Part shown: positions 2,612 through 28,544 of the stretch, piece after piece
Layout of the letters: every line of letters starts with the position of its first letter
How positions within the stretch are numbered: position 1 is the first letter of the stretch
Virus record (IMG/VR): IMGVR_UViG_3300035670_000928
Coordinates: 1 to 30,844 of that record
DNA length: 30,844 bases
Strand: one strand, 5' to 3'
Source: a virus
Program-made: the position numbers and the translations under genes
The notes under the pieces: model-generated
Told to the model about the DNA's origin: nothing
The model's database searches: none
Seen by the model: the letters and a program-made list of their open reading frames with translations, nothing else

Positions 2612-3302
2612 GAGAGGCCTCGCTGATAGCTCGCTTGAGCTTGCTGAGTTGGCGGATGGTCGACTTGAGCTCAGGCGGATACCGGTGGATGGTATTGCGG
2701 CGCATGTTTTCTGCGCGGCTGACCAGCTCTAGGTTGTCGAGCTCGATGTGTTGTGGATTGCGGTCCTTGAACACCACCAGGTGGCCTGGCGGGATCTCGC
2801 CGTGGGCTTCTTCCCAAAGCAGCGAATGCACTGACTTCCAGCGGCGATACGATGGACCGTCATCGCAAACTTTCCGCTGCCGTATCCCATCCTCGGTGAC
2901 GCGCTCAGTGCCTACTGGCAGCCAGGTGTGAGGCTTATTGCCCTTTCGAAACTGGGTGGCTTCGCCGCCAATCTGAAGCCCCTTCAGGCCCTTGTTCCAC
3001 GGTTCCTGGCCTGGCTTGAACCGATATTCGATTCCAGGGTTGTCATCCCGTCGCAGGCGGCAGGCATGCTCGCTGGCGAGATATTCATCGCTTCGGGTCA
3101 GGCCCAAGGCGTGAGCCTTGTTGTAGATGGCGTGGTCGGGCCGATTGAATGTGCGCACCAGATCCGGCATTGGCGTGTCAGGGTACAGATCCTGGAGCCT
3201 GCTCACTTCCGCGTCGGTCCAGAATCTCCGTGACGGCTCGGGCGAGGCCCTCACAAGCCGTCGCCTTGCGTCTTGCAAGGCCTGCAGGGCGATTGGGTTC
3301 AT
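2592..3302 (-). CDS. HNH endonuclease, 236 aa
   Basis: The ATG at 3302 has GAGG 9 nt upstream; the frame stays open further upstream to 3473 but without a better start. The N-terminal 80 residues resemble an SANT/HTH-like DNA-binding segment (RRFWTDAEVSRLQDLYPDTP). The C-terminal half is an HNH nuclease: SVHSLLWEEAHGEIPPGHLV, then DRNPQHIELDNLELVSRAEN with the conserved His and Asn residues. The GTERVTEDGIRQRKVCDDG stretch is typical of this subgroup. It is probably a homing or phage-borne nicking enzyme. It is the second such gene within 2 kb. Confidence 0.88.
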   Translation of the reverse strand: MNPIALQALQDARRRLVRASPEPSRRFWTDAEVSRLQDLYPDTPMPDLVRTFNRPDHAIYNKAHALGLTRSDEYLASEHACRLRRDDNPGIEYRFKPGQEPWNKGLKGLQIGGEATQFRKGNKPHTWLPVGTERVTEDGIRQRKVCDDGPSYRRWKSVHSLLWEEAHGEIPPGHLVVFKDRNPQHIELDNLELVSRAENMRRNTIHRYPPELKSTIRQLSKLKRAISEASREKQDD

Positions 3303-3326
3303 GAGTGATCCTCGCCGTGGAGTCGT

Positions 3327-3349
3327 TATCGTTGAATAGGGGAAGGCGC
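3327..3349. repeat. 23-bp direct repeat, copy 1 (contains GTTGAATAGGGGAAGG)
   Basis: Bases 3327-3349 are identical to 3583-3605. The repeat sits in the leader of the HNH gene (start 3302). Read leftward, it contains TTCCCCTATTC, which recurs in shorter form at 8511-8522, 885-899 and 1323-1335. Confidence 0.85.
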
Positions 3350-3415
3350 CGCAGTAGCGCGCATTGTTCTGCTGGGCTATCAATTCATGTCTGACTCGAC
3401 CCCGTGGAGGTCGCC

Positions 3416-3595
3416 ATGACACTGAAAAGCGATACCGAGGCCCTTGCCTCGATCGAGGAAGAAGCCCAGGCAATGCTGAAGAAGATCGGCCTGCCTGATG
3501 ATCACCTCAAAAAGGACATGGTCATCTGCCTACGCCAGATCATCGCGATTGCCCGCTACCGGAAGGGCCTTGGTGCCGAACCTATCGTTGAATAG
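3416..3595 (+). CDS. small helical protein, 59 aa
   Basis: The ATG at 3416 has GGAGG 6 nt upstream (TGGAGGTCGCCATG); an upstream GTG in frame (3404) sits on the ribosome site and is not used. The product is charged and helical (LASIEEEAQAMLKKIGLPDD, then ICLRQIIAIARYRKG), with no Cys or membrane segment. It lies alone on the plus strand between leftward genes. Its last codons and stop fall inside copy 2 of the 23-bp repeat, so its 3' end may have been copied by recombination. The function is unknown. Confidence 0.6.
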   Translation: MTLKSDTEALASIEEEAQAMLKKIGLPDDHLKKDMVICLRQIIAIARYRKGLGAEPIVE

Positions 3596-4363: not shown

Positions 4364-4678
4364 ATGTCGGTCAAAATCAACCGAAGCGGTCTAGACAAAC
4401 TGATCAAAAATGCAAAGGAGCTGCAAGCCACTAAGCAGGTGAAGCTTGTGGATTTGATGAATCCGTCTTTCATAGCTGCTCACAGCAAGTTTGAAGATCT
4501 TGACGCGCTGTTCGCAGCCTCCGGTTTCAAAGTCGATTCCGCTGAAGATTTCGCCGCGATCCCTGACGATAAATGGGACGCCTTCATATCGGAAAACACG
4601 GATTTCGATAACTGGCTGGAAATGCAGAAGGTTGCGCATGCGGAATTCGCCAAGTCAGTTCTAAACAAAGGACTATGA
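4364..4678 (+). CDS. conserved phage protein of unknown function, 104 aa
   Basis: The ATG at 4364 has GGAG 6 nt upstream. The protein opens MSVKINRSGLDKLIKNAKEL, followed by VDLMNPSFI, SKFEDLDALFAASGF and IPDDKWDAFISENTDF. I recognise this as a widespread prophage family, usually left as hypothetical. It is acidic, helical and soluble. It is transcribed rightward alone and its stop directly abuts the stop of the leftward 4679 gene with no base between them. A role as a small accessory or host-interaction protein is only a guess. Confidence 0.75.
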   Translation: MSVKINRSGLDKLIKNAKELQATKQVKLVDLMNPSFIAAHSKFEDLDALFAASGFKVDSAEDFAAIPDDKWDAFISENTDFDNWLEMQKVAHAEFAKSVLNKGL

Positions 4679-5194
4679 TCAAAAAACAGGCCTGATTAGC
4701 TCATCCCCCGGGTCCTGCTGAATAATCAGCATGCTCTTCCGGTCGAAGGCCAGGGCCAGGCGTGGCGAGATGCTGATCTGATGGCGCGGCGGGGTTAGAA
4801 ACTTCGCCGCGTGCAGCCTGCCCAGGGCGTGGATGCCATGAATCAGCGCCTCGATCATCTGGCTGAGGGTAGCATCAGCCCAGCCGCAGATGGCGCGCAG
4901 GTGCTGTCCGGTTCGCTTCCTGGCTGACAGCCGAAGCGGCTCAGTCCGCGCCACAGAACGGTGGCCTTCTATTTCGTGGCGCGCGATTCTGAGCAAGGCG
5001 TGATGCCCGAGTGCTTCGATGTGATGGATCATCAGCGTCATCGCCTCGCCCTGTTCCTCGATCCCGGCCCACTCCATCAGCTCCAGCAGGGCCTGTTTAG
5101 TCCCTGGTCGAACCTTCAAGCGCAGGTCTTCTTCCTGCAGCCGTGCGGCTTTGGCGCGGCGCTTCTCGTCGCGTTCCTTGGGTGACATCGCCAT
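4679..5194 (-). CDS. small RHH-like phage protein with internal duplication
   Basis: The ATG at 5194 has GGAGG 6 nt upstream. A basic N-terminus (MSPKERDEKRRAKAARLQEE) precedes a segment with an RHH-like layout: LRLKVRPGTKQALLELMEWA, then EQGEAMTLMIHHIEALG. A second weaker copy follows: SARKRTGQHLRAICGWA, then SQMIEALIHGIHALG. Two tandem strand-helix-helix units in one chain would give a built-in dimer for DNA binding. The last 40 residues are unrelated. It sits downstream of two small genes in the leftward operon. DNA binding is inferred, not shown. Confidence 0.65.
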   Translation of the reverse strand: MAMSPKERDEKRRAKAARLQEEDLRLKVRPGTKQALLELMEWAGIEEQGEAMTLMIHHIEALGHHALLRIARHEIEGHRSVARTEPLRLSARKRTGQHLRAICGWADATLSQMIEALIHGIHALGRLHAAKFLTPPRHQISISPRLALAFDRKSMLIIQQDPGDELIRPVF

Positions 5195-11020: not shown

Positions 11021-11163
11021 CTGCATCGGTGATTCATCTGTTTGGCTGAGCGGGATTTGAACCCGCGACCTCCCGTGCACTGGCCTCTACCTAACTGAGT
11101 TACCAGCCTCAAGCGGCATTGGCATGCCTGCCATTTCCGCGAGCAGATGAATCACCGATGCAG
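11021..11163. repeat. perfect 20-bp inverted repeat enclosing a tRNA-like remnant
   Basis: Bases 11021-11040 are the exact reverse complement of 11144-11163, separated by 103 bases. A transcript of either strand would fold into a long stem with the tRNA-like part in its loop. No target-site duplication is seen next to the arms. There is no gene in the wider 10762-11299 gap. Confidence 0.85.
11043..11109 (-). pseudogene. tRNA-like remnant with truncated anticodon arm
   Basis: On the minus strand a perfect T-arm (GCGGG TTCAAAT CCCGC, 11066-11050) is followed by TCAGCCA, which pairs with AGGCTGG (11109-11103) at six of seven positions including one G-T wobble. T8 and A9 are present and the D-arm (CTC AGTTAGGTA GAG) has three good pairs. 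Only 17 nt remain between the D-arm and T-arm, where 23 are expected, so no proper anticodon stem-loop can form. It is therefore a broken tRNA or a tRNA mimic. No genomic CCA lies directly after the acceptor stem. Confidence 0.5.
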
Positions 11164-13888: not shown

Positions 13889-14731
13889 TCATACCAGGTG
13901 CGCATTCCACACCAGCAGCACCCGGGCCTGAATGTAGGTCATGTCCCGACGGATCAGCCGATCCTTGTGCCGCGGGTTGTCCGAAATCATCTCGTAGTGT
14001 TCCTCATCAGCCACCTGCAGGCGCTTGATGTAGAGCAGGTCATCCCAGACGAATAGGTAAACCCCATCGCCGACGAATTCGCGGACGTTGATGTTCACGA
14101 TCAGCGGGTCGCGGTGCTTGATGGTGGGCTCCATCGACTGGCCCCAGCCGGTGACCACTTTCAGGTGGTAGTGCTCCTCGAACTCGACGCCGATTTCCCG
14201 CAGATGACTGGGGCTGACGCGAATGTCCTTGAGCATTTCCGGGTAGTCGTGCGGGAGCTGGCCGCCACCCATTGCAGCGCGGATATCGTAGTGGGCGATC
14301 CGGACTTCATCTCCGACCAGGCCAGGGCGGGTGAAGTCTACGGTAATCACATTTCCCTCATCGGTCGCTTCGGCGGCTGCAATCAACTGCGCGCGCGCAG
14401 AATCCGACAAGTTCTTGCCTTGCTTGGCGAGCATGGCGCGAACCATGTCGGCAGCTGAGGTTGGCGCCGGCTCTGCGACAGGCTCCGAAGTGACGTCCTG
14501 GATGCTCTCGTAGGAGAAGCCAGGGCGAAGCCCCCAGTGCTCAGGGCCCACCACGTCAGAAAAGTAAGCGATCACGTCCATCAGCTTGGACTTATCGATC
14601 CGGCCGTTTTTCACCCAGCCCTGTACCGACGGAGGCTTCACCTGGAAGTCGTCTGCGAGCTGTTTCTTGGATACGCCTTTGGCGATCCGCGCAGCATCAA
14701 TGGCTGCACCTAATTCTGGTCCGGTAAGCAT
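13889..14731 (-). CDS. CI-like repressor, HTH plus S24 peptidase domain
   Basis: The 280-residue protein keeps the lysogenic state and is expected to self-cleave on SOS activation. Residues about 8-60 form an HTH of the CI/Cro type (AIDAARIAKGVSKKQLADDF; KPPSVQGWVKNGRI). The C-terminal half is a LexA/CI S24 domain with catalytic Ser199 in GWGQSMEPTIKHRDPL and Lys236 in LLYIKRL. The usual Ala-Gly cleavage pair is not obvious; RAAMGGGQLP near 151-160 is the likely region. An operator palindrome overlaps the sequence just before the start codon, where the ribosome site is weak, suggesting tight self-control. Confidence 0.93.
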   Translation of the reverse strand: MLTGPELGAAIDAARIAKGVSKKQLADDFQVKPPSVQGWVKNGRIDKSKLMDVIAYFSDVVGPEHWGLRPGFSYESIQDVTSEPVAEPAPTSAADMVRAMLAKQGKNLSDSARAQLIAAAEATDEGNVITVDFTRPGLVGDEVRIAHYDIRAAMGGGQLPHDYPEMLKDIRVSPSHLREIGVEFEEHYHLKVVTGWGQSMEPTIKHRDPLIVNINVREFVGDGVYLFVWDDLLYIKRLQVADEEHYEMISDNPRHKDRLIRRDMTYIQARVLLVWNAHLV

Positions 14732-14732
14732 T

Positions 14733-14797
14733 GCCTAATTAGGCCTATGGCCAGCGCGGTTAGGCAATGGCTTGTACGAAATAAGGTAATGCCTTAT
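14733..14797. promoter_or_regulatory. repressor operator cluster 2 (oR-like)
   Basis: Three sites: GCCTAATTAGGC (14733-14744, perfect palindrome), TTAGGCAATGG (14760-14770) and ATAAGG-TAATG-CCTTAT (14781-14797). They share the half-site of cluster 1. The last sits inside the candidate pR spacer and the first covers the leader of cI, as in a lambda-type switch. Confidence 0.75.
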
Positions 14798-15581: not shown

Positions 15582-16391
15582 ATGCATCTACAGACCCCAA
15601 GTGTACAGGCCCTCATCCGGCCCGCGCCACAAAATGCGAGCCACGATTTCGTGGCGCGCACGATGTCGTCGCGTGAAATCGCCAGCTTGACTGGCAAGCG
15701 TCACGCCAACGTGAAGCGTGACATTGTGACCATGCTGGCCGAACTGAAAGCAGATGTACTCAGTTTTGAGCACATCTACTTGGACGGGCAGAACCGAGAG
15801 CAGGTCGAGTATCTGCTTGATCGCGAGCACACCGACTGCCTGCTAACCGGTTACAGCGCCGGGCTGCGCATGAAAGTGATTCGCCGCTGGCGTGAGCTGG
15901 AAGGCCAGTCTGAAGCCCGCCAGGCGGTTATTGCCAACGGCACCAAGGTCATTGGCGAGATAGCCATCATGGAGTGCTTCACGCGCCTGCTGAAGCCTGC
16001 TGCGTCTTGCCAGATGCAAATGCTGACCAAGATCGCCGAGAACAACGGCCTCGATCCGAAGTTCCTGCCCAGCTATGCCGTGGATGCACCGGCTGACGCA
16101 GCTGGTGGTAGCTCGTTGCCAACCAAGGCCCTGACCGCCTTGCTCAGGGACAACGGTATCCGTATTTCGCCAGTGTCGTTCAACAAGGCCCTGCAGAAGG
16201 CCGGCCTGCTCAAAGTAATGCAGCGCAAGAATTCCAAGCAGGAAATTGTCACTTTCTGGGCAATCACCGACAAAGGCCTTCGCTACGGCAAAAACCTGAC
16301 AAGCCCCCAGTGCCCGCGCGAAACGCAGCCCCACTGGTACGTGGACCGTTTCCTCGAACTGGTAGATCTGGCTGGAGGGCCGCGCCCATGA
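15582..16391 (+). CDS. rha: Rha family regulatory protein
   Basis: The ATG at 15582 gives 269 residues; the frame is open upstream but those codons cover the hairpins. The N-terminal Rha domain shows TMSSREIASLTGKRHANVKR, DIVTMLAELKAD and LLTGYSAGLRMKVIRRWREL. The C-terminal half (KALTALLRDNGIRISPVSFN, KALQKAGLLKVMQRKNSK) resembles antirepressor/KilA-C-like DNA-binding domains. In phi-80 and related phages Rha interferes with growth in hosts lacking IHF. It is the first large gene of the right operon and likely a regulator. Confidence 0.88.
   Translation: MHLQTPSVQALIRPAPQNASHDFVARTMSSREIASLTGKRHANVKRDIVTMLAELKADVLSFEHIYLDGQNREQVEYLLDREHTDCLLTGYSAGLRMKVIRRWRELEGQSEARQAVIANGTKVIGEIAIMECFTRLLKPAASCQMQMLTKIAENNGLDPKFLPSYAVDAPADAAGGSSLPTKALTALLRDNGIRISPVSFNKALQKAGLLKVMQRKNSKQEIVTFWAITDKGLRYGKNLTSPQCPRETQPHWYVDRFLELVDLAGGPRP
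15624..15657. repeat. hairpin element A (GCGCCACAAAAT...TTTCGTGGCGC)
   Basis: GCGCCACAAAAT (15624-15635) and TTTCGTGGCGC (15647-15657) form 7 bp, one A-C mismatch and 3 bp. The same two arms and mismatch recur at 22608-22642 before acb2. Inside, GCCACGA-TT-TCGTGGC offers an alternative perfect stem. It lies within the 5' part of rha. Confidence 0.7.
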
Positions 16392-20233: not shown

Positions 20234-20826
20234 CCGAGATCAAGTCGAAGAAGTGCAAGGCACCAGGTTGCGGCAAGCCCTTCAAGCCGACCATGACTAC
20301 GCAGAAGGTGTGCAGCATTGCCTGTGCCAAGGCTATGGCCAAAGACCCGAAGCTGCAGAAGATCGCGGCCAAGGCCATCACCAAGCAGGCCCGGCAGGAC
20401 TTGCAGGAGCGCCGGGAGAAGCTGAAGACCCGCAGGGAGCACATGGCCGAGGCTCAGACCGCGTTCAATGCCTACATCCGCGAGCGTGACGCCGGCCTGC
20501 CGTGCATCAGCTGCGACTCGAACCCGAGCGACCACGACCTCATCACCGGCAGCCGCTGGGACGCCGGCCATTACCGGTCGGTGGGCGCCTGCCCGGAGCT
20601 GCGCTTCGAGCCGTTGAACGTCCACCGCCAGTGCGTGAAGTGCAACCGGAACCTGTCGGGTAACGCGGTGGAGTACCGCATTCGGTTGGTGAAGCGCATC
20701 GGCGCCGACCAGGTGGATTGGCTTGAAGGGCCTCATAAGCCCCAGCGCCTGACCATCGAAGACCTGCAGGCCATCAAGGCTCTGTACCGGCAGAAGCTCA
20801 AAGACCTGAGGAGGGCAGCGGCATGA
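20224..20826 (+). CDS. ninG: NinG/Rap recombination protein
   Basis: The ATG at 20224 has GGAGG 7 nt upstream and overlaps the previous gene by 10 bases. The N-terminal zinc part (KSKKCKAPGCGKPFKP; KVCSIACAKAMAKD), a long basic helix (KQARQDLQERREKLKTRREH) and the C-terminal Cys/His nuclease-like part (LPCISCDSNPSDHDLI; RWDAGHYRSVGACPELRFEP; NVHRQCVKCNRNLSGN) are all typical of NinG. Lambda Rap is a structure-specific Holliday-junction endonuclease. The length of 200 is normal. Confidence 0.95.
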   Translation: MRVAEIKSKKCKAPGCGKPFKPTMTTQKVCSIACAKAMAKDPKLQKIAAKAITKQARQDLQERREKLKTRREHMAEAQTAFNAYIRERDAGLPCISCDSNPSDHDLITGSRWDAGHYRSVGACPELRFEPLNVHRQCVKCNRNLSGNAVEYRIRLVKRIGADQVDWLEGPHKPQRLTIEDLQAIKALYRQKLKDLRRAAA

Positions 20827-20969
20827 CGCCAGCATGGGGATTTCTGATTTTGGCCACCCTCATGGTGGTGGGTGGTGTGGCGCTGTCCTGGGCAGGAGCA
20901 GTGCGCCGCAAGCGCAGCTACGAAGAATTTATCTTGAGCAAGGCCAAGCAGGCCGGGGGCAAGCAATGA
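20823..20969 (+). CDS. 48-aa small membrane protein
   Basis: The ATG at 20823 overlaps the NinG stop (ATGA) and its own stop overlaps the next ATG (20966-20969). The peptide MTPAWGFLILATLMVVGGVA plus LSWAGAV is one transmembrane helix, with a basic tail (RRKRSYEEFILSKAKQ). The coupling on both sides makes it a credible gene. The function is unknown. Confidence 0.65.
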   Translation: MTPAWGFLILATLMVVGGVALSWAGAVRRKRSYEEFILSKAKQAGGKQ

Positions 20970-21511
20970 ACTATCAGAACGTGGTATCAGCAGTGGTCCG
21001 CGCCCTGGCGGCCGAGACGATCAACAGCGCGGGCGGTTGCGACTTCGAGCCGAAGGTCCAAGCGGCAAAGCAGAAGGGCGAGATCATCGGGAAGGAAGCT
21101 GCATTCCTCATGGACTGCTGGGTGTTCGGTCGGCCACACAAGAACCTCAGCGAGGAGCACTGGCGCCACCTAGTGGCGAAGTACTCCACGCACGTCGACC
21201 GCAAGCACGCGGCCATCGAGGAGATCACCCGACTGCACAGGTCGCCGGCACCCAAGCGCTTCCGCCACTGCGCCATCCTGACCTGGGCAATGCCCAAGCT
21301 GCCAGGCGTGGATGGTAAGCGCAGCACCAGCGTGCTACCGGCCGCGTGGTACGAGATGGACAACTGGAGCAACGAGCCGCACCCGATCAAGACCCAGGAG
21401 CGGTGGCGGCGTGATATCCGGAAGGCTCTAGACTCCAAGGTTGACGAGGCCTTGACTGAGGCGCAGCACATTCTCGACCATGAAGGCCTTTTGGTGGCAA
21501 ATGTGGCTTGA
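20966..21511 (+). CDS. Q-like late antiterminator candidate
   Basis: The ATG at 20966 gives 181 residues. The sequence opens MNYQNVVSAVVRALAAETIN and has QKGEIIGKEAAFLMDCWVFG, then YSTHVDRKHAAIEEITRL and RHCAILTWAMPKLPGVDGKR. I recall this as a family found in many Pseudomonas prophages at the end of the early operon. Its position directly after NinG, with a promoter candidate and a strong terminator next, fits a Q antiterminator. Family identity to Q is not proven. Confidence 0.65.
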   Translation: MNYQNVVSAVVRALAAETINSAGGCDFEPKVQAAKQKGEIIGKEAAFLMDCWVFGRPHKNLSEEHWRHLVAKYSTHVDRKHAAIEEITRLHRSPAPKRFRHCAILTWAMPKLPGVDGKRSTSVLPAAWYEMDNWSNEPHPIKTQERWRRDIRKALDSKVDEALTEAQHILDHEGLLVANVA

Positions 21512-21537
21512 CGACGAATGAGCCATTGAGCCAATAT
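21508..21537 (+). promoter_or_regulatory. candidate late promoter (pR'-like)
   Basis: TTGACG (21508-21513), 18-bp spacer, CAATAT (21532-21537); TATATC four bases later is an alternative -10. It overlaps the end of the Q-like gene and lies about 45 bases before a strong terminator, the arrangement used for Q-dependent late transcription. Confidence 0.45.
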
Positions 21538-21580
21538 ATCTCCATCCTGTCGTTCCTGCGTGTGTGAGGATGACAAATTG

Positions 21581-21606
21581 AACCCGGCCACTGAGCCGGG
21601 TTTTTT
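21581..21606 (+). terminator. intrinsic terminator after the Q-like gene (tR'-like)
   Basis: AACCCGGC (21581-21588), loop CACTGA, GCCGGGTT (21595-21602), then a T-run to 21606. It ends early transcription and should need antitermination for the lysis, packaging and head genes. Confidence 0.9.
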
Positions 21607-21643
21607 ATTGCCCAAAGAGGCCCTCAACAGTCCCGGAGGCTGA

Positions 21644-21907
21644 ATGTCCCGGTCAACGTGCTGGAGCCTCCTGGCCTTCGCCATGGCTCTCGCCAGCTAC
21701 GCCATGCATCGCGACATCAGCGCGAACATCTTCCTCGGGTGCCTCTTCATCATCCAGGGCCTCAAAAGGCCTGACGGTTCGCCCCAAGAGCGCCGGGCAA
21801 TCTTCCTGGCTGCAACGCTAAGCGTCGGCATCCTCATTTTTGCGGCATGGGCACTTACCACGGGCGTGGACTTCCACGGCCCTGCGCCATTCCGCTACAA
21901 GCATTAA
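21644..21907 (+). CDS. membrane protein of the lysis region, 87 aa
   Basis: The ATG at 21644 has GGAGG 5 nt upstream. There are three hydrophobic segments: CWSLLAFAMALASYAM, ANIFLGCLFIIQGL and AIFLAATLSVGILIFAAWAL. The first late gene, it lies before a holin-like gene and may be a pinholin, antiholin or spanin-related factor; none of these can be picked from sequence alone. Confidence 0.65.
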   Translation: MSRSTCWSLLAFAMALASYAMHRDISANIFLGCLFIIQGLKRPDGSPQERRAIFLAATLSVGILIFAAWALTTGVDFHGPAPFRYKH

Positions 21908-21917
21908 GGGACTGAAC

Positions 21918-22307
21918 ATGGTCGATGCCGCTTCTGCAGCTGCCTGCACGGTTGTAGGGCTTGGCGGCATTGCCCTGGCAAGCTGCCTTCCCACGATTGA
22001 TCTGAACGCTGTTGTCTGCGCCTTCGGTGGCGCACTGCTCTTCATACTCTGGGCGAAGGACATCACCCTCTGGCAGCGCATGGGCTACCTGCTCGCCGGT
22101 TGGATCGGCGGGTATTACGGCTCTGCCGAGATCCTTGCCCAGGCCTGGACCAAAACCAGCGGCATTGCCGCCTTCAGCTGTGGCCTCGCCACCGTCCTGG
22201 TGAGCATCAGCGTTCTGGAGTCGATCACCACCGGCAAACTGCCGAAGTGGGTAACCGAGCTGCCAGCAGCAATCGGCAGCCTGTTCCCCAAGCGAGGGGG
22301 CCAATGA
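21918..22307 (+). CDS. probable holin
   Basis: The ATG at 21918 gives 129 residues with several membrane helices: SAAACTVVGLGGIALASCLP, VVCAFGGALLFILWAKDI, GYLLAGWIGGYYGSAEIL and GIAAFSCGLATVLVSISVLE. The repeated G-x-x-G patterns and WIGGYY segment resemble holin proteins that Pseudomonas prophages carry between Q and the terminase. The basic C-terminus (LFPKRGGQ) would be cytosolic. It would open the inner membrane for an endolysin encoded elsewhere. Confidence 0.7.
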   Translation: MVDAASAAACTVVGLGGIALASCLPTIDLNAVVCAFGGALLFILWAKDITLWQRMGYLLAGWIGGYYGSAEILAQAWTKTSGIAAFSCGLATVLVSISVLESITTGKLPKWVTELPAAIGSLFPKRGGQ

Positions 22308-22621
22308 CCCTAGACCAAACCATCACCCTGGCTCATGCCGGGTTCTGCGGCGGGATCTGCTTTGTCATCGCGTTCATGTACCGGCGTGGCGGGTCCAGCT
22401 ACAAGTTCCTGCCAAGCCTGTGCGCCTTCTGCCTGGCATCCCTGTTCGGCCAGGAGTGGCTGAGCATCGTCGGCGCGATCCTGCTCTATGGGCAGTGGCC
22501 ATCCACATCGGTGCCCAGCACCCTGATATTCGGGATCCTGTTCATCCTGGCGCTGCGCTCCCGCGGCAATGTGGCCAGGTTGTTCGATCAGTCCAGGCAC
22601 AGGGCGCGCGCCACAAAATAG
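22304..22621 (+). CDS. small membrane protein paired with the holin, 105 aa
   Basis: The ATG at 22304 overlaps the holin stop (ATGA). Helices: LAHAGFCGGICFVIAFMY, LPSLCAFCLASLFGQEWL, IVGAILLYGQW and STLIFGILFILALRSRG. Overlapping membrane genes are usual for holin/antiholin pairs. Its last codons lie inside hairpin element B. Confidence 0.7.
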   Translation: MTLDQTITLAHAGFCGGICFVIAFMYRRGGSSYKFLPSLCAFCLASLFGQEWLSIVGAILLYGQWPSTSVPSTLIFGILFILALRSRGNVARLFDQSRHRARATK

Positions 22622-22642
22622 ACATGCGCCGTTTCGTGGCGC
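22608..22642. repeat. hairpin element B, in the acb2 leader
   Basis: GCGCCACAAAAT (22608-22619) and TTTCGTGGCGC (22632-22642) repeat the arms of element A at 15624-15657, including the same A-C mismatch, with a different loop. It overlaps the stop of the membrane gene and ends 19 bases before the acb2 start codon. Confidence 0.75.
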
Positions 22643-22661
22643 TACCACCAGAGGATTCACC

Positions 22662-22892
22662 ATGGACAACCAGCACAAGAAGATCACCGGCTACCGCGAC
22701 CTCACCCAAAGCGAGATCGACGGCATGAACTCGATCAAGGCCCTGGAGGCCGACGCCGGCGAGCTGTTCAAGCAGATCGGTCAGATCGAAGGCGTAGATC
22801 AGCGCACCTTGGCCCTGGCCAAGACCAACCTGCAGCAAGGCTTCATGTGGTTTGTGCGCTCGATAGCTAAGCCCGCCGACCCATTCAGCTGA
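22662..22892 (+). CDS. acb2: Acb2/Tad1-type cyclic-nucleotide sponge (anti-CBASS)
   Basis: The ATG at 22662 has AGAGG 7 nt upstream and gives 76 residues. The layout matches phage Acb2: HKKITGYRDLTQSEIDGMNS, a helix, GVDQRTLALAKTNLQQGFMW and a closing VRSIAKP. Acb2 hexamers bind the cyclic di- and trinucleotides made by CBASS, stopping abortive defence; related proteins also bind Thoeris signals. From memory of the published Acb2 structure, Tyr11 and Lys26 contact the ligand, and Tyr11 and Lys26 are present here at the same numbers. It sits between the holin-type genes and the packaging genes, a usual moron spot. Confidence 0.82.
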   Translation: MDNQHKKITGYRDLTQSEIDGMNSIKALEADAGELFKQIGQIEGVDQRTLALAKTNLQQGFMWFVRSIAKPADPFS

Positions 22893-22900
22893 GTGCAGCC

Positions 22901-23338
22901 ATGACCACCATCGCCTACAAGGATGGCGTTATCGCCTATGACTCACAGATCGCCCGTGGTGACGTGATCACCTACGACGACTATGAGAAGTGCATCGAGC
23001 AGGGCGGCGTAAAGTTCTTCTGCTCGGGTGCCGTGCCCGACTTCCAGCGCCTGGTTGATGCGTACTTCGGCGCCAAGCCGGATGGAAACATCGACGCAAC
23101 GGCACTCGTCCTTGATGGCGAAAGCCTGATGATGGTCGCTGTCGATGACGCCACGGGGCTTTGGAAGTCACCAGTTTTGCGTGATCGACCGTATGCCATC
23201 GGCAGCGGTACGCCATACGCATTCGCTGCGATGGATATGGGTGCATCTGCCGAGAAGGCCGTCGAGATGGCTGCCAGGCGCGACACCAGCACCGGGGGGA
23301 AGATCAGGTCGATGAGGATTGGCGAGCTGGCAGGGTAG
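22901..23338 (+). CDS. HslV/proteasome-beta-like Ntn hydrolase
   Basis: The 145-residue protein begins MTTIAYKDGVIAYDSQIARG, like HslV (MTTI...), where Thr2 becomes the N-terminal nucleophile. Lys30 lies where the catalytic Lys33 of the family falls. YAIGSGTPYAFAAMDMGASA (99 onward) is the GSG loop followed by the helix typical of proteasome beta folds. HslV normally needs the HslU unfoldase; none is encoded here. It could degrade host or phage proteins alone or with host HslU. It follows acb2 by 8 bases, so the two are co-transcribed. Confidence 0.8.
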   Translation: MTTIAYKDGVIAYDSQIARGDVITYDDYEKCIEQGGVKFFCSGAVPDFQRLVDAYFGAKPDGNIDATALVLDGESLMMVAVDDATGLWKSPVLRDRPYAIGSGTPYAFAAMDMGASAEKAVEMAARRDTSTGGKIRSMRIGELAG

Positions 23339-23340
23339 GT

Positions 23341-23362
23341 GTGCCGCAGGTGAGTGCGGCAC
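23341..23362. terminator. hairpin between converging genes
   Basis: GTGCCGCA (23341-23348), loop GGTGAG, TGCGGCAC (23355-23362): a perfect 8-bp stem between the HslV-like gene and the reverse-strand gene. There is no T-run on either side, so termination would be weak or factor dependent. Confidence 0.45.
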
Positions 23363-23369
23363 GGATGAT

Positions 23370-23576
23370 CTACTTCACTTTCAGAGCTTCTTGGATCAGA
23401 TCGGCGTATTTCGAGAGCCTCTCCATTTCATTTATCAGCTGATTGACGTGGCCTTCGACCCCTACCCGTGCTGCTATGAGTTCTGCAGCAGCAGCGACAG
23501 CAAATGCCCTTTGGCCTTCTGGGTTGGTGGTGTGATAGCTGGACGCATCGGCAACCAGTTTTCCAACGACAGACAT
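23370..23576 (-). CDS. reverse-strand moron, 68 aa
   Basis: The ATG at 23576 has AAGGA 9 nt upstream. The product is helical and soluble: MSVVGKLVADASSYHTTNPE, GQRAFAVAAAAELIAARVGV, EGHVNQLINEMERLSKYADL. It is the only leftward gene among the late genes and has its own promoter, so it is likely expressed in the lysogen as a moron. The function is unknown; a defence or host-modifying role is a guess from context. Confidence 0.72.
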   Translation of the reverse strand: MSVVGKLVADASSYHTTNPEGQRAFAVAAAAELIAARVGVEGHVNQLINEMERLSKYADLIQEALKVK

Positions 23577-23607
23577 ACGCTAATTCCTTTAGGTGGTTGG
23601 ATCCCCA

Positions 23608-23636
23608 TCAATACCGGCAATCGGCCACTATTTCAA
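23608..23636 (-). promoter_or_regulatory. sigma-70 promoter of the reverse-strand moron
   Basis: Read leftward: TTGAAA (23636-23631), 17-bp spacer, TATTGA (23613-23608). The -35 matches five of six consensus bases. It lies 32 bases before the start codon of the 68-aa gene and has no other gene to serve. Confidence 0.7.
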
Positions 23637-23650
23637 GGTGTGGGTAGAGC

Positions 23651-24259
23651 ATGATCAGACCGATGCCGCCAGCTGACCTGCTCGAATCTCTGTGGCTAAC
23701 GCTTCGCCCGGCCACTGGTGTGTGGGACTGGGTGCAGAGCGAGATCCTCGCCGACACTGGCAGCATTCATAATCCGGAGCATGCCCACCTGATCGACGCC
23801 AACATCGGCGTGCTGTGGGCATCAAGCGGATTCGGCAAGCAGGGGCGGGTGGTACTAGGCCAGGCCGAGCAGTTGATGTTCCGTGCTGGCGGCTGGCAGA
23901 AAGCCCGGCAAGAGCAGCAGATGCGGCAGTGGTTCGGCGAGGAGCCGTCCTACCTCATCACCCTGGCAGCTGACTACTGCTCCCAGTGCACCGATGCTGA
24001 GTTCTGCGCCCTAGTCGAGCACGAGCTGTACCACATCGCCCAGGCGACCGATGAGCATGGCGCGCCCAAGTTCACCAAGGACGGGATGCCCAAGCTCTAC
24101 CTGCGCGGACATGACGTCGAGGAGTTCGTCGGCGTGGTGAGGCGCTACGGTGCCAGCGAAGACGTACAGCAGCTGATCGACGCTGCAAGCCGGCCGCCTG
24201 AGGTGGCGAAAATCAACATTGCGAGGGCCTGCGGAACCTGCCTACTCAAGTCGGCCTGA
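23651..24259 (+). CDS. putative phage metallopeptidase (HExxH)
   Basis: The 202-residue product has the zinc-peptidase motif EHELYHIAQ (about residue 127), giving HELYH, with a later EEFVGVVRRYG segment that may complete the metal site. The front part (SLWLTLRPATGVWDWVQSEI) and LAADYCSQCTDAEFCALVEH are also seen in the phage metallopeptidase family (SprT-like). Such genes often precede the terminase in Pseudomonas phages. Its substrate is unknown. Confidence 0.85.
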   Translation: MIRPMPPADLLESLWLTLRPATGVWDWVQSEILADTGSIHNPEHAHLIDANIGVLWASSGFGKQGRVVLGQAEQLMFRAGGWQKARQEQQMRQWFGEEPSYLITLAADYCSQCTDAEFCALVEHELYHIAQATDEHGAPKFTKDGMPKLYLRGHDVEEFVGVVRRYGASEDVQQLIDAASRPPEVAKINIARACGTCLLKSA

Positions 24260-24290
24260 TTTTTGACAGGTTTTGACGGATGACAAACCC

Positions 24291-24767
24291 ATGGCAGCAC
24301 TACGAAGCGAGGTCAAAGCCTTCATTGTTCAGGCTCTGGCCTGCTTCGATTCACCCAGCCAGGTGGTGGAGGCCGTCAAGAAGGAATTCGGGGTCGAGGT
24401 GAGTCGCCAGCAGTGCGAGTCGCATGACCCTACCAAGTATGCAGGCAGAGGCCTGGCCCAAAAGTGGGCTGACCTGTTCCATGAATGCCGAAAGCGCTTT
24501 CGCGAAGAAACGGCAGACATCCCAATCGCCAACCGAGCGTTCCGGCTGCGCGGGCTTGGGCGAATGGCTGAGAAAGCCGAGAACATGCGCAACCTCGCGT
24601 TGACTGCCCAGCTGTACGAGCAGGCAGCAAAGGAATGCGGCGACATGTACGTCAACCGCAAGATCGAACCCGACAAGCCCCTGGGCTCCCAGGCGGATCA
24701 GCAGCACGCCGTTGCTGAGTACAAGCTGGAGCCAGACGAAGGTGTCCCGACTACCCCGTACCTATGA
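24291..24767 (+). CDS. terS: DUF2280 small terminase subunit
   Basis: The ATG at 24291 is chosen (MAALRSEVKAFIVQALACFD is the usual start of this family); the frame could also open with TTG at 24273. The first 60 residues form a DNA-binding HTH (SPSQVVEAVKKEFGVEVSRQ). The middle (FHECRKRFREETADIPIANR; MAEKAENMRNLALTAQLYEQ) is helical and oligomerising. It recognises phage DNA for packaging and overlaps the large subunit by 26 bases. Confidence 0.88.
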   Translation: MAALRSEVKAFIVQALACFDSPSQVVEAVKKEFGVEVSRQQCESHDPTKYAGRGLAQKWADLFHECRKRFREETADIPIANRAFRLRGLGRMAEKAENMRNLALTAQLYEQAAKECGDMYVNRKIEPDKPLGSQADQQHAVAEYKLEPDEGVPTTPYL

Positions 24768-26070
24768 CCCGCCGGTGAAGTTGACGCCGAAGCAGGCGAA
24801 CATCTACGTCTGGGGCTTTCAGCCTGAAGCGCGCTTCCGTGATGCGGTGTGCGGGCGTCGATTTGGCAAAACCTTCCTCGGCAAGGCAGAGATGCGCCGC
24901 GCGGCCCGGCTGGCTGCGGAGTGGGGTGTGAGCGTCGAGGACGAGATCTGGTATGGCGCGCCAACGTTCAAGCAGGCCAAGCGGGTCTTCTGGCGCCGGC
25001 TGAAGCAGGCCATCCCAGAGGCCTGGCGCGCAGCTCGACCGAACGAGACCGAGTGCTCGATTACCCTCAAGTCCGGCCACATCATGCGTGTGGTCGGCCT
25101 GGACAATTACGACAACTTGCGGGGCTCCGGCCTGTTCTTCGTCTTGGTGGACGAATGGGCGGACTGCCCGTGGGCAGCCTGGGAAGAAGTGCTCAGGCCT
25201 ATGCTCTCGACCTGCCAGTACACGATCCCCCAGACCGGGGAGTCGAGAAAGGGCGGGCATGCGCTGCGGATCGGGACCCCGAAGGGCTTCAACCACTGCT
25301 ACGACACCTACCGCGACGGACAGCCGGGCGGCGAGCCGGATCACAAGAGCTGGCAGTACACCTCGCTGCAGGGCGGCAACGTCCCGGCCGATGAGCTGGA
25401 CGCTGCCCGCCGCAAGATGGACCCCCGCACGTTCCGCCAGGAATACGAGGCCGGATTCGAGAACTACGCCGGGGTGGTGTACTACACCTTCGACCGCGCC
25501 GAGTGCCGCACCAGCGAGCGCATCAAGCCGGGCGAGGCCGTGCACATCGGCATGGACTTCAACGTCATGAAGATGGCCGCGGTCGTGTACGTGGTCCGGG
25601 ACGGCCTGCCGCTGGCGCTGGATGAGTTCCACTCGGTGCGGGATACGCCCGAGATGATCGAGAAGATCAAGGTTCGATTTTCTGGCCACAGCGTCTCCGT
25701 GTACCCAGACGCCAGCGGCCAGAACACCAGTAGCAAGAACGCTAGCGAATCGGACCTGTCCCTGCTCAAGAAGGCCGGCTTCACCGTGGTGGTCGACTCG
25801 CAGAACCCCGGCGTGAAGGATCGCATCAACGCGGTCAACTCCATGTTCCTCAACACCTACGGGGAGCGGCGCCTGAAGGTCAACATTGACCAGTGTCCGC
25901 AGCTTACGCAGTGCCTGGAGCGGCAGACGTACACCGACAAGGGTGAGCCGGACAAGGACCCCAAGAAAGGGCACGACCACATGAACGACGCCGCCGGCTA
26001 CTTCATCGCCAAGCGGTTCCCGATCAAGACTCAGTCCGCCGGCACCCGCCGCATCGGAGGTTTGGCGTAA
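24742..26070 (+). CDS. terL: large terminase subunit
   Basis: The GTG at 24742 is taken as start (GGAG about 9 nt upstream; TTG at 24712 is an alternative), giving 442 residues. The ATPase half has Walker A CGRRFGKT (37-44) and Walker B FFVLVDEW (132-139). The nuclease half has an RNase-H-like Asp set: HIGMDFNVMK, VYPDASGQN and HDHMNDAAGYF. It packages DNA into the procapsid by ATP hydrolysis and cuts it. It overlaps the small subunit and is followed by the portal gene with one shared base. Confidence 0.96.
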   Translation: MSRLPRTYDPPVKLTPKQANIYVWGFQPEARFRDAVCGRRFGKTFLGKAEMRRAARLAAEWGVSVEDEIWYGAPTFKQAKRVFWRRLKQAIPEAWRAARPNETECSITLKSGHIMRVVGLDNYDNLRGSGLFFVLVDEWADCPWAAWEEVLRPMLSTCQYTIPQTGESRKGGHALRIGTPKGFNHCYDTYRDGQPGGEPDHKSWQYTSLQGGNVPADELDAARRKMDPRTFRQEYEAGFENYAGVVYYTFDRAECRTSERIKPGEAVHIGMDFNVMKMAAVVYVVRDGLPLALDEFHSVRDTPEMIEKIKVRFSGHSVSVYPDASGQNTSSKNASESDLSLLKKAGFTVVVDSQNPGVKDRINAVNSMFLNTYGERRLKVNIDQCPQLTQCLERQTYTDKGEPDKDPKKGHDHMNDAAGYFIAKRFPIKTQSAGTRRIGGLA

Positions 26071-28539: not shown

Positions 28540-28544
28540 ACAAG

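Follow-up and report, generated by a model that had tools for sequence, protein, structure and literature searches.

The open reading frame at positions 22662–22892 of the window (the whole stretch of viral DNA that was analysed, 30,844 nucleotides) encodes a small protein of the Acb2 family, and we consider it highly probable that this protein is a cyclic-oligonucleotide sponge that is produced in the lytic phase from a late operon under a Q/AlpA-like antiterminator and that counters CBASS. The observations on which we base this reading are the family assignment, the predicted fold, the conserved contact residues, the purifying selection on the gene, the gene order, a terminator and a repeat promoter. 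The window protein is real and correctly named, and it adds one more member to an already known family.

Results

The acb2 frame lies on the plus strand, opens with ATG behind the ribosome-binding site AGAGGA, closes with TGA and specifies 76 amino acids (MDNQHKKITGYRDLTQSEIDGMNSIKALEADAGELFKQIGQIEGVDQRTLALAKTNLQQGFMWFVRSIAKPADPFS). The original prediction had placed the frame at exactly these coordinates and had proposed a family search as a check. The search returned Pfam PF24729 (Acb2_Tad1_hairpin; cut-off 27 bits) at 70.4 bits and 1.5e-19, with the complete profile covered (positions 1–58 of 58). Among the sequences in the PDB, the nearest are those of p26/Acb2 (8h2j, which phmmer found at 4.1e-13, and 8ixz) and of T4 Vs.4 (7uq2). 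Relatives occur in 218 phage records, 327 viral stretches and 45 genome stretches; one of the genome-stretch matches (L124) was rejected as a chance match. The closest relatives are Pseudomonas prophages, in which the 76-aa form is almost invariant, and lengths of 74 or 76 aa, the commonest in the family, were found for 170 of 207 Acb2-family sequences. The PHROGs families matched by the product are all of unknown function, and searches of NCBIfam and PADLOC with it yielded nothing, which explains the names that depositors have given to the relatives: hypothetical protein, "NAD/FAD-utilizing enzyme" and Rz-like spanin, the last of these assigned to the opposite, incorrect strand. In phrog_717 (289 positions), the Acb2 region occupies positions 199–287, so that some members may carry a further domain of approximately 200 residues at the N terminus.

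Across 89 distinct Pseudomonas alleles, the mean dN is 0.031 and the mean dS is 0.94 (dN/dS of approximately 0.03), and the gene is thus under purifying selection. Several prophage relatives are interrupted (L037, L107 and L108, and also G019 and G128, where stop codons fall within the matched region), and from these alone acb2 could be regarded as a degenerate or neutral passenger that has no function in this phage. We find this explanation scarcely credible, because the window allele is intact, all of its contact residues have been kept, and the dN/dS ratio is very low. The interrupted alleles resemble the acb2 of PaMx41 (stop at codon 37); selection may have been relaxed in these phages, or defences that sense sponges may have favoured the loss. 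An alignment of 74 diverse relatives shows no variation at H5, G10, Y11, R12, L14, N23 and K26, whereas R48, T55, Q58, G60, M62, R66, A69 and P71 are kept in 90% or more; the pocket residues Y11, K26 and R66 are conserved.

An AlphaFold2 model of the single chain, built with the 74-sequence alignment (pLDDT 87.4; helices at residues 4–7, 16–40 and 47–66), consists of a short N-terminal helix and a long antiparallel helical hairpin. When this model was compared with the PDB in Foldseek, the first eight matches were all Acb2 (8h2x, 8h2j) or Vs.4 (7uq2), with a probability of 1.00, TM values of 0.65–0.70 and E-values from 5e-4 to 0.03, and the next match followed at an E-value of 1.5. The fit to the crystal chains is moderate (rmsd 4–5 Å), as expected for a protein with 17 fewer residues than its PaMx33 counterpart. 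Tad1 belongs to the same Pfam hairpin family, assembles as a hexamer and binds cyclic trinucleotides (review PMC12043709); however, it has an N-terminal four-stranded β-sheet and binds gcADPR, whereas the 76-aa model contains helices only and lacks the sheet domain. As modelled, the product is an Acb2 protein rather than a Tad1 protein, Acb2 being the nearer relative.

In T4 Vs.4, cGAMP is contacted by Y8, H11, K23, R79 and F82, T12 and S74 are also needed, and the hexamer interface includes L29, F33, A66, A73 and A77 (PMC10097602). The contacts Y8, K23 and R79 align with Y11, K26 and R66 of the window protein, and the two proteins also have in common the fold, Thr68 of Vs.4 and a Met-Trp pair in the last helix. 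Vs.4 differs in that it stacks Phe82 and uses His11, whereas the window protein has Ala69 and Leu14 at these positions, which are the residues of PaMx33 Acb2, whose activity as a sponge has been proven; T12 and S74 align with T15 and F61. The PaP2/PaMx33 Acb2 protein (93 aa; PDB 8h2j, 8h2x and 8ixz) closely resembles the window protein in the N-terminal part and has the same hairpin fold, and the contacts Y11, L14, K26, R85/R66 and A88/A69 (PaMx33/window) are common to both. However, the hairpin tip of the PaMx33 protein is 17 residues longer, the shorter hairpin middle of the window protein being that of most of the family. In addition, the near-invariant R48 aligns with PaMx33 position 67, where an arginine presumably takes part in the binding of cyclic trinucleotides. 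The interface residues of Vs.4 align with A32, F36, A53, G60 and F64 of the window protein, which are small or hydrophobic. A mutation of A77 to isoleucine in Vs.4 breaks the T4 hexamer, and the presence of Phe64 at this position in the window protein counts against a hexamer, although PaMx33 Acb2 has isoleucine there and is hexameric.

The sequence, the fold and the contact residues support the identification as an Acb2-type sponge that the original prediction had made. Tyr11 and Lys26 are found where it had located them, and the middle helix does differ from that of PaMx33; the tryptophan that it had noted in the C-terminal helix is present but is residue 63 rather than 62. Its further suggestion, of a ligand range altered along with the middle helix and the tryptophan, found no support, because the short helix and the tryptophan are both common in the family and therefore provide no argument for a new ligand range. 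One might nevertheless propose that the short-hairpin Acb2 of Pseudomonas takes up a non-CBASS ligand, such as TIR-derived cyclic ADP-ribose, in the manner of Tad1. PF24729 places Acb2 together with the Tad1 hairpin, sister phages carry a Tad2-like protein at the same genomic position, so that Thoeris pressure is plausible, and Trp63 replaces Ala82 of the PaMx33 protein, which alters the surface of the C-terminal helix. We nevertheless regard such a shift as very improbable, because the dinucleotide contacts are identical to those of PaMx33 Acb2, Trp63 is present in approximately half of the family and in the cGAMP-binding T4 Vs.4, and the β-sheet of Tad1 is missing from the model. We therefore see no grounds for supposing that the window protein binds ligands beyond those of the known Acb2 proteins.

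The acb2 gene is located in a late region, all on the plus strand, in which the antiterminator gene is followed first by the holins and acb2 and then by genes for an HslV-like protein, a metallopeptidase and the terminases. The gene that ends at 21511 probably starts at 20966, where its match to phrog_3412 begins, and would encode 181 aa. An AlphaFold2 model of its product (pLDDT 82) was matched in Foldseek by two AlpA chains before all others, 7xyb_G (probability 1.00) and 7xya_G (0.99), with E-values of 0.12–0.15 and an rmsd of approximately 9 Å. The E-value of 0.12 counts against the match, which has the fold probability and the promoter layout in its favour; we regard the product as a putative Q/AlpA-like antiterminator, the probable late-gene switch. 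The direct repeat TGAGCCA-T-TGAGCCA (21519–21533) follows and, together with AATATAT, forms a candidate antiterminator-binding late promoter (21519–21540). Downstream of it, a stretch resembling CCATCCTGTCATTCCTGCG is conserved, and an intrinsic terminator (21580–21607; 9-bp stem and T-run) lies between the promoter and the lysis genes. AlpA is known to load at its promoter (PMC7969949, PMC9371919), and a repeat promoter followed by a terminator is the layout expected for a promoter-loading antiterminator of this type. AlpA of P. aeruginosa and 21Q are similar to the window gene in having a promoter element before an intrinsic terminator and may be similar to it in fold; the AlpA element GGGACG, however, is replaced here by two direct repeats. 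The arrangement of repeat, −10-like element and CCATCCTGTCATTCCTGCG is kept in related phages even though the repeat sequence varies (TGAGCGA, CATGTCG, ATGGCC and others); it is mostly still a repeat, and in most of these phages a terminator stands behind it. An element that changes and yet remains repeated suggests antiterminator specificities that co-evolve with their sites.

Behind the terminator are a holin gene (21918–22307; Phage_holin_8, PF16931, 71.1 bits; phrog_198), a second holin gene (22304–22621; Phage_holin_3_7, PF05449, 40.8 bits; phrog_217) and acb2, and next in the operon is an HslV/proteasome-β-like gene (22901–23338; phrog_1040, 141 bits). These are followed by a putative phage metallopeptidase gene (23651–24259; PF18894, 152.9 bits) and, at 24273–26070, by a DUF2280 gene, probably that of the small terminase (PF10045, 157 bits), and the large terminase gene (PF17289, 57 bits). 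The antiterminator, the direct-repeat promoter and the terminator upstream of the lysis genes agree with the late position and late control that had been proposed for acb2. The accompanying thought that the gene might have its own promoter found no support, because a scan of the plus strand from 20800 to 24800 gave no promoter-like match and no sigma-70-like promoter directly before acb2. From this arrangement, acb2 is probably a true late gene that is co-transcribed with the head genes. The setting differs from that in PaP2/PaMx33, where acb2 ends a cluster of replication genes (polymerase, primase, MazG), whereas the window gene stands between lysis and packaging genes in a temperate-type late operon. 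Elsewhere in the window, a stretch on the minus strand (11042–11109) matches the Rfam tRNA model at 33 bits (cut-off 29) and is perhaps a degenerate tRNA; ARAGORN did not confirm this match.

An inverted repeat of 36–37 bp, of the general form CGCG[A/C]CAC-N20/21-GTG[T/G]CGCG, stands just upstream of acb2 and recurs in the window, which contains three sites with at most one mismatch; 200 dinucleotide shuffles of it contain 0.075 such sites on average. The third site (22607–22643; CGCGCCAC-N21-GTGGCGCT, in full CGCGCCACAAAATAGACATGCGCCGTTTCGTGGCGCT) ends 18 nt before the ATG of acb2. The other two have no mismatches and are located in the leftward early operon (4947–4983; CGCGCCAC-N21-GTGGCGCG) and near the 5′ end of the coding sequence of a Rha/Roi-like gene (15623–15658; CGCGCCAC-N20-GTGGCGCG). 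This gene (15582–16391, plus strand) encodes a phage regulator of 269 aa (PF09669, Phage_pRha, 50.8 bits; cut-off 29.9). In 83 of 123 acb2 loci, a repeat of this type lies within 75 nt upstream of acb2, mostly with a gap of 18 or 21 nt to the ATG. The lysis gene in front of a late copy differs between phages, and the copy begins approximately 2 nt past its stop codon. The copy in the rha gene is found at or close to +41 nt from the start codon in approximately 20 phages, although their Rha/Roi proteins differ widely, and the copy in the left operon also occurs in Cruim01 and phiPSA1. Cruim01 has four repeats (one behind a head gene, one within the left operon, one in a gene annotated as Roi and one before acb2), phiPSA1 and phiAH14a have three each, and four are present in the part of the Medea1 genome that was read. 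Two forms can be distinguished by position 5 of the arm, C/G (68 of 105 distinct elements) and A/T (31 of 105), whose halves change together; of 62 multi-site loci, partly redundant and related, 57 have one and the same form throughout. Some phages have an additional repeat after the head morphogenesis gene (Cruim01 at 4530, L009 at 11431, L082 at 14122 and L111 at 13576), behind which is a GC-rich hairpin, in Cruim01 also with a T-run; the window lacks this copy at 28540. In another locus (L382, 1278–1536), three sites, two C/G and one A/T, lie within approximately 260 bp.

Several readings of the repeat were considered. As an RNA hairpin riboregulator before acb2, it folds no better than shuffled sequences (z −0.08), matches nothing in Rfam at the site, and has imperfect pairs in which the transcribed strand does not favour G:U (G:T 13, A:C 12); we have set this reading aside only as the first choice. 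A palindrome that acts at the level of DNA fits the absence of a G:U bias, which speaks for a DNA site. A control element specific to acb2 was rejected because the same repeat stands before many other genes. A host regulon is unlikely because class-A/T sites are absent from 177 of 199 Pseudomonas genomes, and in the other genomes many of them are paired 6–8 kb apart, as in a prophage. The divergent region of the S24 repressor (14729–14769) has a different repeat, CATTGCCTAA...TTAGGCAATG, which argues against a CI operator. An attC-like recombination cassette of integrons is not consistent with a single late copy per contig without arrays, nor is a packaging (cos) site consistent with the end of the Cruim01 record, which lies approximately 1.35 kb from the repeat.

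The natural candidate for a protein that binds the repeat is Rha/Roi; according to a title cited in PMC3430580, Roi of HK022 affects lytic growth in IHF mutants. It could then be argued that acb2 is under separate control through the repeat, for example as a Rha/Roi operator, with early or lysogenic switch-on. The distance of 18 nt to the acb2 start, the recurrence in the rha gene and in the left operon and the conservation in related phages would suit such control. However, a promoter-like sequence was not found near the repeat, an identical site stands before many other genes at this position, and the class-2 repeat has no acb2 behind it in 86 of 109 cases; we therefore consider separate control rather unlikely and prefer transcription from the late promoter. 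The repeats are comparable to the mycobacteriophage stoperators, which are sequence-specific sites across the phage genome; stoperators, however, lack symmetry and are recognised by the immunity repressor, whereas the window sites are inverted repeats at few fixed places. A literature search found no description of this repeat or of such a regulator-site system.

The genes behind the late repeat vary, and include acb2, a 62-aa MTNVTRLHHALPL... protein and other small unknowns, among them the products MTADIHDI... and MGDKSGEHVHW...; elsewhere the repeat is directly adjoined by the HslV-like gene (phiAH14a) or by a metallopeptidase or terminase gene. In three near-identical loci (L154, at 2945–3496, L155 and L234), the gene behind the repeat encodes a Tad2-like protein of 166 aa (PF11195, 92.4 bits; cut-off 25), and the order is holin, repeat, tad2-like, hslV-like and metallopeptidase. 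With acb2 in the window and the Tad2-like gene in sister phages, this slot houses two unrelated known anti-defence families. Tad2-like proteins were found in only two of 199 Pseudomonas genomes, in one of which (G034) the gene is approximately 6 kb from the nearest repeat. The 62-aa protein (MTNVTRLHHALPLSPAINQAITELDSAIAKAIDAAKAAGLPQGLVVSLLHGHAQMQTNIMVS) is the first gene behind the repeat in 28 loci (L133, L135, L136 and 25 others); a family search with it gave no match above the cut-off, and we regard it as a candidate counter-defence gene.

Among 199 genomes of Pseudomonas species, the Acb2 family is above the cut-off in 18 (approximately 9%), and SMODS, the CD-NTase domain of CBASS-type cyclases, is also found in 18; both occur together in two (G058 and G060). 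The Panoptes cyclase mCpol, part of a system that punishes sponges (PMC12657218), was found in one. The genus Pseudomonas thus carries CBASS, and Panoptes is rare there; the implication of the original prediction that the host group has CBASS or Thoeris thus holds, for CBASS, at the level of the genus.

Discussion

According to a recent review, Acb2 works at induction and not in lysogeny (PMC12043709). In the mechanism that we propose, synthesis of the window protein would likewise be limited to the lytic phase: the Q/AlpA-like antiterminator would allow RNA polymerase to read through the terminator at 21580–21607, and the holins, acb2, the terminase and the head genes would be transcribed as one late operon. 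Six of the 76-aa helical hairpins would be expected to assemble into a hexamer with three pockets for cyclic dinucleotides, each between two protomers, and the central channel would hold cyclic trinucleotides at its two ends. The signals of the CBASS cyclase would thereby be sequestered, and effectors such as CapV or NucC would remain off.

A prohead protease has been reported to activate a CBASS sensor (review PMC12409349), and escapers of an acb2-deleted phage carry capsid mutations (PMC10419184). The genes for head products, which these reports name as CBASS triggers, would follow acb2 within one operon, and for this reason late synthesis can suffice; Acb2 may already be there when the head-gene triggers appear. 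In PaMx33 and T4, acb2 is outside any lysis-packaging late operon, and these known examples are thus no proof that late expression suffices.

More speculatively, the site between the lysis and packaging genes of these Pseudomonas phages may serve as an exchangeable anti-defence slot, marked by phage-wide repeats with which a regulator, perhaps Rha/Roi, coordinates the left, right and late operons. If so, the occupants are Acb2, the Tad2-like protein and small unknowns that may be new counter-defence factors, and the Tad2-like occupant places the small unknown genes of the slot on a short list of possible new anti-defence genes. Together with the exchangeable slot, the set of repeats is the less expected part of our observations, and it points to a regulator-site system.

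For the Acb2 family, the occurrence in approximately 9% of genomes is found despite acb2 being unannotated in most records. In Pseudomonas prophages, a late operon that links acb2 with lysis genes would couple counter-defence to the arrival of the head proteins that trigger CBASS, and the timing of acb2 relative to these triggers becomes directly testable.
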